This document shows positions 2,641-32,187 of a DNA stretch of 64,000 bases, one piece after another. The stretch is from Halobacteriales archaeon QS_8_69_73. Its GTDB lineage: Archaea; Halobacteriota; Halobacteria; Halobacteriales; Haloarculaceae. The DNA lies in NCBI GenBank assembly GCA_003022945.1, contig PXRZ01000008.1:8691-72690 (forward strand), given 5' to 3'. The number at the start of each line of letters is the position of its first letter. Position 1 is the first letter of the stretch. The notes beneath the pieces are model-generated. The model ran no database searches. It saw only the letters and a program-made list of their open reading frames with translations, and was not told the DNA's origin. A program made the position numbers and the translations under genes.

Positions 2641-3114
2641 TTACGTATTACACTCGTACTTGGCGAGCGTCGTCGAGGTCTCGCCGTCATCGGACTTCCA
2701 GGTTATGCGGATCTCCTCGTTACTAACGATATTATTACTCGGAATGGCGCAGGAGTCGCCAGCACCTAGCTCGGTGCTGCTCCAGGCGTCACTACCCCAG
2801 TCGTCGTGCTGACAGCTGGACTAGGCTTCGGTGCTGGTGCCGCTGGTGGTGTTTGTGTCCAAATCGCCGCCCGTCACGTTCAGATTGCTCACGCCGACGG
2901 GCTGACCGCCGTCGTGTATGATCGTCAGGTCACTGTTGCTATCCTCACTGAAGATGAACTGAGCATTCGGTGCTGTATCCTGTACTTGCCCGCCGAGGCC
3001 GAGGACGAAGGTGCCGATGACGGCCGCGAGGATAACTGTGATTGCGACCATCAGGATGACCCCGATGACCGGCGATACCGCGTCGTCGTCCGCGAAGAGC
3101 TCGTGTAGCTTCAT
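2641..3114 (-). pseudogene. Type IV pilin (archaeal pilin N-terminal family) interrupted by an in-frame TAG at 2821-2823
   Basis: [42 protein letters not shown] identical to neighbours; after TAG the same frame continues SSCQHDDWGSDAWSSTELGAGDSCAIPSNNIVSNEEIRITWKSDDGETSTTLAKYECNT*, matching paralogs. Confidence 0.8.
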
Positions 3115-3494
3115 GATTGTGCCGGCAGTCTCTCGTCGGAAACGGTCGCGGGTGCCCATTCAACTCCGTCGGCGACCGGCCGCCAACGACCGCAAACGCC
3201 CCACGCCGTCTCTCCGATGTAGACTGTCAACGCCTCCAGGGACGATTGCCGGTATATTACTATTCCACCGATTTCACAACTCGATTGTATTTGCGATTCT
3301 CACCGATATCGCGAGTCTTAAACGCTCTGCGGGCCGTGCCGGCTGCTGATCGGTGCGAAATATATTGAGTATGTACGCGGCGTGATACGAAAGCGGCTCG
3401 ATGACTGACGCGACCCGAGTAGAGATAGCATTAACTCCCAGTCCGGATGCCGACGGCAGATTATAGGATGACCGACGGGAGTGGTCGGAATTTA

Positions 3495-3938
3495 TTAATT
3501 GTATTCGTACTTGGCGAGCGTGGTTGAGGTGCCGCCGTCATCGGACTCCCAGACGATGCGAACCGTTTCATCACTGCTAATATCGGTACTATCAATAGTG
3601 CAACTGTCTCCCGCTGAGAGTTCGGTTGAACTCCAGGTTTGGCTGCCTGCGGTATTGTCCTGACATTTATCGTTACTTACGTAGCTTCGATCAGGATTAG
3701 TCACCTTAACATTCGATACTGAGACAGTCTCGCCTCCATCGTGTGTCATCACGAGATTATCATTATCCTGGCTAAATGTGAACTGTGCGTTCGGTGCCGT
3801 ATCCTGTACCTGGCCGCCAAGACCCAGTACGAAGGTACCGATAACGGCTGCGAGGATGACTGTAATTGCGACCATCAGGATGACCCCGATGACCGGCGAT
3901 ACCGCGTCGTCGTCTGCGAAGAGTTCGTGTAACTTCAT
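3495..3938 (-). CDS. Type IV pilin, tandem paralog
   Basis: 147 aa; [27 protein letters not shown] prepilin hydrophobic domain; C...W..TELSAGDSC...[18 protein letters not shown]. Confidence 0.85.
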   Translation of the reverse strand: MKLHELFADDDAVSPVIGVILMVAITVILAAVIGTFVLGLGGQVQDTAPNAQFTFSQDNDNLVMTHDGGETVSVSNVKVTNPDRSYVSNDKCQDNTAGSQTWSSTELSAGDSCTIDSTDISSDETVRIVWESDDGGTSTTLAKYEYN

Positions 3939-4312
3939 GACTGTGCTGGCAGTCCCCCGTCGAAAGCGGCCGCGGGTGCCCGTTCAAGACCGTCGGCGAA
4001 TGGTCGCCGGTGGCCATAGGCGTTCCACGCCGTCTCTCCGATGTAGACTGTCAACGGCTTCAAGAACGATTGCCGGTATATTAACCATTCCACCAATTTC
4101 ACGACTCGATTGCGTTTACAATAATCGCCGATGTCGCGAGTCTTAGACTCTCTACGGGCCGTTTCGATTACTGATTAGTGCGAGACATATCGATATGTGC
4201 ACAGTACAATACAGGAGCAGCTTGACGACCGACATGATCCGAGCAGAAGTAGTGCTATTCTTAGGTCAGATGCCGACGGCAGATTATAATGACTGATGGA
4301 AGCGGTCGGGAT

Positions 4313-4789
4313 TTAGGTACTATATTCGTACGTGGCGAGCGTTGTCGAGGTGCCGCCGTCATCGGACTCCCAGACGATGCGAACCGTATCATCAGGGTCA
4401 ATCCTGTCATCCGGGACGATGCAATTGTCTCCTGCCGAGAGTTCGGTTGAGGTCCAGTCATTGGAGTTGCTGGGGTTGTCAGCGTCCTGACAGATCGTAG
4501 GCGAAGTTGTGTAATCTCCATTATCACTGACCACCTTAACATTCGATGTCAAGACGTTCTCGCCCCCATCGTGTGTCATCTTGAGGTCATCATCATTACT
4601 AGCAGCACCAGTATCCTCCTGAGTAAATGTGAACTGTGTGTTCGGTGCCGTATCCTGTACTTGGCCGCCGAGGCCAAGAACAAAGGTGCCGATGACGGCC
4701 GCGAGGATGACCGTTATTGCGACCATCAGGATAACCCCGATGACCGGCGATACCGCGTCGTCGTCCGCGAAGAGTTCGTGTAACTTCAT
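4313..4789 (-). CDS. Type IV pilin, tandem paralog
   Basis: 158 aa; same N-terminal domain and C-terminal motif, different central segment. Confidence 0.85.
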
Positions 4790-5166
4790 GACTGTGCTGG
4801 CAGTCCCCCGTCGAAAGCGGCCGCGGGTGCCCGTTCAAGACCGCCGGCGACCGTCCGCCGACGACCGCGGGCGTTCCACGCCGTCTTTCCGATGTAGACT
4901 GTCAACGCCTCCAGCGACAATTGCCGGCATATTAACCATTCCACCGATTTCACGACTCGATTGCGTTCGCGATACTCGGTGATTTTGCGGGCCAGAATCG
5001 CTCTGCGGGCCGTACCGGTTACTGGCCGGTGCAGGACGTATTGGATATGTACGCGGCAAAACATGAAAGCGGCTCGACGGTCGACACGACCCGAGCAGAG
5101 TGGTAATGCCCTCGGTTCGGATGCCAACAGCGGCACCGCGGGGTGACCGACCGGATTGACCGAGGT

Positions 5167-5607
5167 TCAGTACTCGTATTTAGCGAGCGTCGCCGAGGTG
5201 CCGCCGTCGTCGGACTCCCAGGTGATGCGTATGGTGTCGCCGTCGGTGAGTTCACCGTTGTCGAGAGTACAGGAATCACCTGCGGTCAGTTCAGCATCAC
5301 TACCGCTCCACTCGTTGCTGCCACCCCCGTCCGTTTGACAACCGAGGCTGCCACTGCCATCGTAGGTTACACTCATTTTCTCGACATCAACAGAGTCACC
5401 ATTGTCGTGTGTCATCGTGAGATCCCCATTATCCTCCTGACTAAACGTAAACTGGGCGTTGGGCGGATTATTCTGAAGATCACCCCCGATACTCAGAACG
5501 AAGGTGCCGATGACGGCCGCGAGGATGACCGTTATTGCGACCATCAGGATAACCCCGATGACCGGCGATACCGCGTCGTCGCCCGCGAAGAGTTTGCGTA
5601 GTTTCAT
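5167..5607 (-). CDS. Type IV pilin, more divergent tandem paralog
   Basis: [46 protein letters not shown]-terminal ELTAGDSC...[17 protein letters not shown]. Confidence 0.85.
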   Translation of the reverse strand: MKLRKLFAGDDAVSPVIGVILMVAITVILAAVIGTFVLSIGGDLQNNPPNAQFTFSQEDNGDLTMTHDNGDSVDVEKMSVTYDGSGSLGCQTDGGGSNEWSGSDAELTAGDSCTLDNGELTDGDTIRITWESDDGGTSATLAKYEY

Positions 5608-5990
5608 GGTTGTCTTGGCAGCCTCACATCGGATGTGCGGCCGCGGGAGTTCGTCGATTTTTTCCCCATCCCCCCTTTCGGATGGGGGTCGTTGCATGTC
5701 CCCCCTGCCGTCCCCCCCAATGTGGCTGCTCAGCCCTACACTCGCCCTCCTGCTACATTAAACATTCTCATGGTTCCGTGCGAATTCTGTCTTAAAATTT
5801 GCGTGCGTGTTGCTCGCCGATACGCCCCGAGACGCGCGGACTCCACGACCCGGCGTTCGACGCACGCTTCGCCGCCGCGGAACGCCGGTGGCGATCGCCG
5901 CCGCGAGGCCCGGGCACTCGTCGATCACCGCCTCGGCGTTCGCTCGACGGCCGCCAGCGCGAGGTCGCTCTCTGTGGACAGTCGGCTGGG

Positions 5991-6788
5991 TCATACCGCC
6001 GTCTCCAGACGCTCCCGGGCGACGTGCCCGAACTCCGCCTTGCGATGACAGGCGGGACACAGCGAGACGACGTTCTCGAGGTAGTGGGCGTCGGCCTCGG
6101 CGGTCGCCGGCGTCTCCACGAACGCCCGGACCGGCACGATATGGTGGACGTCCGGGTTCCGGCCGAGGTCCTCTCGGCCCGTCCCGCAGATGACGCACTC
6201 GTGGTTGTCCCGCTCGAGGGCCTGCCGCCGAACCCGGTTCCATCCTCGACCGTAGTTGGCCTCGGTACCGCCCTCCCAGTTCGGGTGCCCCTCGCCGGTG
6301 AACGCCTCCGAGAGCCACGCGTACTGGCACTCGTCGCTACAGAGGACGTGGTCACCGTCAGAGACGCTCCGATAACGGGTGAATGTAGCACCACATTCCT
6401 CGCATTCGAGTTCCTGCTCGCCACCGGACCAGCGAGGGTTCCGACTCCCCGTGATGTCCCGGTCGTGTCTCCACGTCTCGGTTTCGACACACGTCCCGCA
6501 GTAGTGTCCTGGCTTCTCCGACGGATAGTACTCGAACGTCGTATCACAGATATTACACTCCGTCGTCTCCTTCCCACCGCTGTAGTTCGGATTGTTCTCG
6601 CCCTCGAAGGAAACCGACGCGTTCAGACACTCCTCGGAACAGTACTTCTTCTCGTACTCGCTGTAGAACTCCGTCTCACACCGGGCACACTCCCGGTTCG
6701 GCAACCGTTCTCCGTGGACCGAGCTGTGGTGGACGCCCAATCCACGGCGTGTCTCGAAGCACCGCCCGCAACTTGGACAGCCGTGCAT
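5991..6788 (-). CDS. HNH endonuclease with repeated zinc-ribbon/NPxWxGG modules
   Basis: C-terminal CVICGTG...DVHHIVPVRAF...LENVVSLCPACHRKAE HNH motif; three Cys-pair modules each followed by NPNYSGG/NPRWSGG/HPNWEGG. Confidence 0.85.
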   Translation of the reverse strand: MHGCPSCGRCFETRRGLGVHHSSVHGERLPNRECARCETEFYSEYEKKYCSEECLNASVSFEGENNPNYSGGKETTECNICDTTFEYYPSEKPGHYCGTCVETETWRHDRDITGSRNPRWSGGEQELECEECGATFTRYRSVSDGDHVLCSDECQYAWLSEAFTGEGHPNWEGGTEANYGRGWNRVRRQALERDNHECVICGTGREDLGRNPDVHHIVPVRAFVETPATAEADAHYLENVVSLCPACHRKAEFGHVARERLETAV

Positions 6789-31735: not shown

Positions 31736-32187
31736 ACCGTCGTCTCCAGCGTCGCGATCCGGTGGTCGCCGGCGTACAGCCGTAGCTCCACGGTCGCCCC
31801 GGCCTCGGGCGTCGGCCGGTTCGTCGAGGCGACCCGCAGCGACGCCGTCTCGCCGGCCGTCCACGGACCCATGTAGGCGCTGTTGAACGGCCCGGTCGGC
31901 CCGCTCTCGAAGCCGTCGGCGGCGAAGAACGGTACCGGGGGCTGCTCGGCCAGCGGTCGCCCGTCGACGCGGACCCGGACGCGGAGCGTCGACGGGTCGA
32001 CCGCCTCGCCTCCGCGGTGGGTGACCCGGATCTCGCCGTCCGCCGTCGCCGCACAGTCGAAGCTCGCCGTCGGGGCGGTCGCCGGCGGGTCGACCGTCAG
32101 CAGCGCGCCGAGCCCGGCGGCGGCGGCGACCGTCACGGCGACGAGCAGGACGACCCCGACGACCGGCACGGCGGCACGGTCGGTCAT
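31732..32187 (-). CDS. Type IV pilin-like protein (DUF1628-type)
   Basis: MTDRAAVPVVGVVLLVAVTVAAAAGLGALL N-terminal pilin-like hydrophobic domain. Confidence 0.75.
   Translation of the reverse strand: MTDRAAVPVVGVVLLVAVTVAAAAGLGALLTVDPPATAPTASFDCAATADGEIRVTHRGGEAVDPSTLRVRVRVDGRPLAEQPPVPFFAADGFESGPTGPFNSAYMGPWTAGETASLRVASTNRPTPEAGATVELRLYAGDHRIATLETTV

Follow-up and report, generated by a model that had tools for sequence, protein, structure and literature searches.

A tandem type IV pilin array in a haloarchaeon: variable copy number and mosaic genes point to diversification of pilin heads by recombination at the H-domain

The 64,000-nt stretch of haloarchaeal DNA analyzed here (the window) carries a run of type IV pilin genes that begin almost identically and then diverge. 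How does such an array come to pair a constant start with variable heads, and does recombination within it switch the pilin that the cell displays, as a first-pass annotation of the same DNA had proposed? The array lies on contig C8 of a draft assembly (76% complete) and consists of four units in the same direction on the minus strand. Their starts, at 3114, 3938, 4789 and 5607, are spaced 824, 851 and 818 bp apart, in agreement with the annotated period of ~820–850 bp, and a 300-nt block recurs in register in four copies with 62–89% identity to the reference copy, far above chance. The annotated count of four pilin genes stands for the units but not for intact genes, which number three, all on the minus strand: U2 (3495..3938, 147 aa), U3 (4313..4789, 158 aa, a mosaic unit) and U4 (5167..5607, 146 aa), the last being the vertical orthologue of unit 1 in the related genome G011 (88% at the amino acid level). 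U1 (2641..3114, minus strand) contains one in-frame TAG (2821-2823) that leaves only 97 aa open. Because conserved sites 3' of this stop have also changed (WESDDGG to WKSDDGE and KYEY to KYEC), U1 is a decaying copy. The Cys pair and conserved end that had been described as recurring are common to U2–U4, with a WESDDGG-type end. Elsewhere in the window, at 31963-32172 (minus strand), lies a further, divergent Pilin_N gene (E=3e-12), whose likely G011 counterpart is at C10:169962.

The units are haloarchaeal PilA-type adhesion/type IV pilins. All four contain Pilin_N (PF07790; E ~1e-24, 84–86 bits against a cut-off of 25.2), array pilins score 43–50 bits with TIGR02537 (cut-off 20), and a profile built from 15 related pilins hits 8FJ5 with E=1e-47. 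A structural model of U2 (mean pLDDT 76) has a helix at residues 15–44 followed by strands, the long N-terminal helix plus beta-rich head of solved haloarchaeal pili. A fold search with this model returned 8FJ5, the Haloferax volcanii type IV pilus, as the first match (E=8e-11, with a TM score of only 0.53–0.58), followed by two Natrinema pili. The H-domain core is identical in all four units and directly follows the prepilin-peptidase site DAVS, one of the processing sites listed for the H. volcanii PilA pilins (PMC4371748). The H-domain protein sequence is nearly unchanged throughout haloarchaea. In H. volcanii it is almost fully conserved among six PilA pilins, each of which can form pili alone; these pilins differ in adhesion, and subsets have been reported for planktonic versus sessile growth (PMC4371748). 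PilA genes outside pilus operons occur as singletons or tandem genes and are prone to duplication (PMC4858521). In the window genome, T2SSF (PilC-type) genes were found on contigs C37, C18 and C9, none of them adjoining the array. A codon-level feature was also observed: the rare codon GTA encodes Val+1, the first residue of the mature pilin (codon 13), in 31 of 68 collected pilins and, by a hand count from tables, at ~65 of 225 order-wide H-domain sites, the baseline being 3.4% of Val codons in ORFs of the genus and 2.7% before TCG.

Nucleotide alignment bore out the description of a near-identical start followed by a variable middle. The first 50 residues are identical in U1–U3 and differ at a few positions in U4. 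The H-domain DNA (nt 28–120 of each gene; 2995..3087 in U1, 3819..3911 in U2, 4670..4762 in U3 and 5488..5580 in U4, all minus strand) is 88–95% identical among all four units, and the variable head (nt 231–420) is 37–58% identical between units. The spacer conservation noted earlier for U1–U3 holds for the promoter and leader (-200 to -60, 80–86% identity) but falls to only 65–71% in the distal spacer (-340 to -200). The DNA upstream of U4 is unrelated to that of the other three (~45%) and is orthologous to the DNA upstream of unit 1 in G011. Since upstream DNA is common to U1–U3 and of another type in U4, the proposed amplification of a gene-plus-spacer unit holds for U1–U3, and U4 is an older, separate lineage.

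Each of the four units is equipped with an ATG, a leader and a TATA-like box. The boxes, putative promoter elements read from the DNA, lie ~140–150 nt before the ATG on the minus strand: TTAATATA for U2 (4077..4084), TTAATATG for U3 (4929-4936), a weakened GTAATATA for U1 (3253-3260) and TTTAATGTA for U4 (near 5754-5762). In all four units the ~118 nt preceding the ATG are predicted to form a single end-to-end hairpin that stops a few bases short of the start codon (U1 3115-3232, U2 3939-4056, U3 4790-4907 and U4 5608-5725, minus strand); given the position of the boxes, almost all of the 5' leader would be taken up by this hairpin. It is predicted despite the unlike sequences of the U4-type and U1–3-type leaders, and it recurs in most units of this locus elsewhere (L037, L039 and L040). 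Folding z-scores for 13 leaders ranged from -0.5 to -5.3, unit B of G013 being the exception to the fold; 120 control upstream regions averaged -0.24. Covariation among six U1–3-type leaders did not exceed that in shuffles, so support for the hairpin comes from its folding energy and its recurrence in unlike leaders. An Rfam search of the leader gave no match up to E=1. The U4 leader also contains several runs of 4–7 G (5658-5722, minus strand) that are conserved in G011; by eye they do not form a canonical four-run short-loop quadruplex.

Signs of exchange between units were found around the conserved start. Using a run test on six aligned units, with P values from 3000 shuffles, U2 and U3 were found to be identical at 34 polymorphic sites in a row around the start codon, between -60 and +15 (3924..3998 in U2 and 4775..4849 in U3, minus strand; P=3e-4, the floor of the test). 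A second candidate tract, 80 nt long and identical in U3 (4683..4762) and U4 (5501..5580), both on the minus strand, includes nine consecutive silent sites at which the two agree (P=0.007, uncorrected for the 15 pairs compared). The tract covers the three silent H-domain differences between U4 and its G011 orthologue, and at each of them U3 matches U4. The nearest relative changes repeatedly along U3, from G011 unit 2 in the distal spacer (78%) to U2 in the leader (53/53 identical), U4 in the H-domain (94.6%) and U2 again at the tail end (89%). U4 itself is 91–100% identical to G011 unit 1 in every gene segment. It has been inherited vertically since the split from G011, apart from the H-domain tract.

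The array occupies a locus, between genes for an HNH protein and a cupin, that can be followed across relatives, each species being represented by one genome. Four units are present in the window, three in L037 (a relative labelled Haloferacaceae), two each in G011, G014 and G013, and one in G016. Pilins are missing from the locus in five other genomes: G005, G018, G003 and G002 retain the HNH and cupin genes, and G017 has neither HNH gene nor pilin there. Because related genomes hold from zero to four units at the same place, the array expands and contracts. A second array locus with conserved flanks has four units in G001, three plus a divergent pilin in G010, and three in G015. Broken copies were found outside the window as well, namely a G010 unit with a TGA and a G013 unit with a deletion in the H-domain. 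The G016 unit (L043:7374-7862) is internally duplicated toward the end of its head, where EGTLRVTWESDDGSNSGT occurs twice in direct orientation.

The HNH gene (5991-6788, minus strand) was considered as a source of an array-specific nuclease or dedicated recombinase. This candidate was rejected because the gene keeps the same position in the four relatives that have it without a pilin. Its product has a Cys-rich N-terminal part; the gene is conserved at the locus, evolves faster than its neighbors (dS 0.48) and is reduced to a fragment in G016. In G014, a gene that looks TnpB-like by eye (L040:10276-11649) lies between HNH and the next gene; it is absent from G013.

A chimaera was seen in the comparison of G014 with G013, two genomes separated by a dS of 0.02–0.11 in their flanking genes. 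In unit A, 748 of 792 sites agree upstream and 94 of 95 at the gene start, followed by just 91 of 172 in the head: identity of 94–99% falls to 53% inside the H-domain codons and returns at the gene end. The maximum chi-square of this breakpoint was reached in 0 of 200 shuffles. At the joint, unit A of G013 has lost 39 nt of the H-domain, and the chimaera may not be functional. The head of the adjoining unit B stays at 88%. No donor of the replaced G013 head was identified, the best match (G016) reaching only 47%. The last array unit of G001 and G010 shows the reverse pattern: identity is 51% to the left of the apparent breakpoint and 86% to the right (P=5e-4), with promoter, leader and first gene part at ~50%, the remainder at 86–93% up to the stop codon, and no similarity beyond it. 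In L037, units 1 and 3 have identical H-domains (93/93) between flanks of 74–75%, and dS in the pilins of this genome is 0.03–0.13 for the start plus H-domain versus 0.87–1.36 for the tails of the same genes.

Silent sites give a broader view of this homogeneity. Silent codon identity in the H-domain averaged 0.62 for units of the same array (42 pairs), 0.46 for pilins at another locus of the same genome (21 pairs) and 0.45 between genomes (2214 pairs). Because other loci of the same genome reach only 0.46, the codon preference of the genome does not explain the identity within arrays, even though protein constraint and codon preference account for part of the H-domain similarity. Concerted evolution by gene conversion, with paralogues closer than orthologues at silent sites inside short tracts, is seen in the window (U3/U4) and in L037 but not in every array: the signal is weak or absent in those of G001, G015 and G010 (0.28–0.62), so homogenization is not equally active everywhere. 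In a nearest-neighbor test of array clustering, H-domain silent sites (16 of 55) did not outperform the tails (18.5 of 55). Between U4 and its G011 orthologue, dN/dS is 0.76 in the tail, 0.17 in the N-terminal part and 0.10–0.22 in flanking genes, a tail value that indicates relaxed or diversifying evolution and is not proof of positive selection.

We consider it likely that gene birth and loss, together with homologous recombination anchored in the H-domain, diversify the pilin heads of this array over evolutionary time. Three elements can be read from the assembled DNA: copy number changes at a conserved locus, units contain mosaic tracts, and relatives have breakpoints within or close to the H-domain. 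In the mechanism that we propose, the invariant N-terminal helix would build the pilus core and fit one shared assembly machine encoded elsewhere, and the variable C-terminal domain would form the exposed head. Recombination between copies would multiply and remove units. The homology arm would be the near-identical H-domain DNA, together with the promoter and leader that units share on its upstream side and with the conserved WESDDGG end. Short gene-conversion tracts would pass through this arm, and through it a new head, taken from a neighboring unit or from incoming DNA, could be joined to an existing start. The outcome would be an interchangeable set of pilins that have the core in common but differ in their surfaces, among them broken copies like U1. 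The agent would presumably be homologous recombination of the RadA type. Homologous recombination is plausible here because gene conversion between genome copies is efficient in polyploid haloarchaea, H. volcanii among them (PMC11276520). Surface diversity might in turn pay off through adhesion specificity or escape from pilus-binding viruses.

Several other explanations were weighed. Plain duplication and divergence, in which protein function and codon preference preserve the H-domain, point mutations and indels change the head, and recombination plays little part, fits the frequency of tandem PilA duplication (PMC4858521), the near-constancy of the H-domain protein across haloarchaea and the existence of arrays without homogenization. 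We nevertheless regard it as unlikely, since in G013/G014 and G001/G010 identity shifts abruptly at the H-domain, with no gradual transition, the sharing inside tracts extends beyond amino acids to silent sites, and silent identity is higher within an array than at other loci of the same genome. The mosaics might instead be artefacts in which assemblers joined metagenome strains at the shared ~90-nt block: the drafts of the window genome, G013 and G014 consist of multiple contigs and are incomplete (76%, 82% and 72% complete), and the joints fall at a repeat. However, exchange is also seen in the last units of G010, a 2-contig assembly, and G001, which is 97% complete; the 39-nt deletion at the G013 joint is unexpected from a simple repeat mis-join, and copy-number differences occur on contigs with both flanks. 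An artefact of this kind therefore seems quite improbable. A conditional repertoire, in which separately regulated pilins serve different conditions and the array merely holds them, stands at about an even chance in our judgement. It has a precedent in the six H. volcanii PilA pilins, which differ in adhesion and reportedly in use by growth mode (PMC4371748), and it suits the separate promoter-like boxes and leaders. It leaves the mosaic tracts unexplained, but it is compatible with recombination-driven diversification and not a strict alternative to it.

Taken as programmed antigenic or phase variation, the switching idea of the first-pass annotation would have one unit expressed, the others, U1 included, donating heads, and frequent conversion within a growing population. 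The constant start, variable head, tandem donors, stop-bearing copy and short conversion-like tracts of the array are what such a system would look like, as are the broken copies in G010 and G013. Yet no single expression locus was seen in the array. A start codon, a leader and a TATA-like box are present in every unit, the defect of U1 lies in the head and is not a 5' truncation, no silent 5'-truncated cassettes are present, and no dedicated recombinase was found beside the array. U4 and its G011 orthologue have diverged vertically at the rate of the flanking genes (dS 0.11, compared with 0.02–0.19 for flanking genes other than HNH), unlike a busy expression site. Switching of one expressed pilin from a silent store is therefore very unlikely. 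Inversion-type or site-specific phase variation was also considered and set aside: no inverted repeat pair of at least 30 nt flanks the units, and the HNH gene is the only candidate nearby. What survives of the annotation is the type IV pilin identity, the amplification of gene plus spacer in U1–U3, recombination using the conserved block, seen in the window tracts and in the breakpoints of both pairs of relatives, and a faster turnover of the variable parts than of the flanks, seen in the G013/G014 head and the U4 tail. The comparison with relatives that it had proposed thus uncovered variable copy number and chimaeric pilins rather than the same four units throughout, free of recombination and with variable regions no faster than their surroundings.

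It is a speculative extension, to which we give little credence, that H-domain-anchored head exchange is frequent enough within populations to form an active archaeal counterpart of pilin antigenic variation directed at viruses or surfaces, and that the leader hairpin helps to select the unit that is made. The recombination signals described here are between species. They turn the matter into a testable question: are pilins shuffled in archaeal populations, and does shuffling track surfaces or pilus-binding viruses? A literature search, with subscription journals largely outside it, found no report of archaeal pilin antigenic variation by gene conversion.

The Neisseria pilE/pilS system combines one expressed locus with promoterless, 5'-truncated silent copies and works by recombination between paralogues. 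The window array resembles it in its constant start, its variable head and homologous recombination between paralogues. It differs in having neither a single expression locus nor promoterless truncated copies. With a start codon and a promoter-like box in each unit, the array gives no support to a programmed switch of the Neisseria type, and that label is best avoided. Within the archaea, the Sulfolobus islandicus pilins PilA1 and PilA2 vary within a population, with virus escape suggested as the pressure, but they belong to another lineage, number two and diversify at the level of residues, not by module exchange (PMC7217056). The cell-wall island of Haloquadratum walsbyi is a haloarchaeal case of surface genes diversified by homologous recombination, for which virus avoidance has been proposed; it concerns S-layer and large surface proteins, with tracts from ~250 bp to many kilobases and no tandem pilin array (PMC4535781). 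The closest relatives are PilA1–PilA6 of H. volcanii (arCOG02416) and the 8FJ5 filament, which are of the same family, with the same H-domain and a similar size, and whose genes also lie apart from those for assembly (PMC4371748, PMC4858521). The aligned 8FJ5 chain lacks the head Cys pair present in the intact window units, and the window differs further in that its four units form a single array marked by shared upstream DNA and by mosaic tracts. Tandem PilA genes with a common H-domain were already known from haloarchaea, and the archaeal survey of Makarova, Koonin and Albers (2016; PMC4858521) describes singletons and tandem genes outside pilus operons in a text from which the word "recombination" is absent. 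To this picture the present analysis adds chimaeras anchored in the H-domain and a copy number that varies at a single locus, and it suggests that conserved H-domain DNA may serve also as a recombination anchor, combining one pilus core with different heads.
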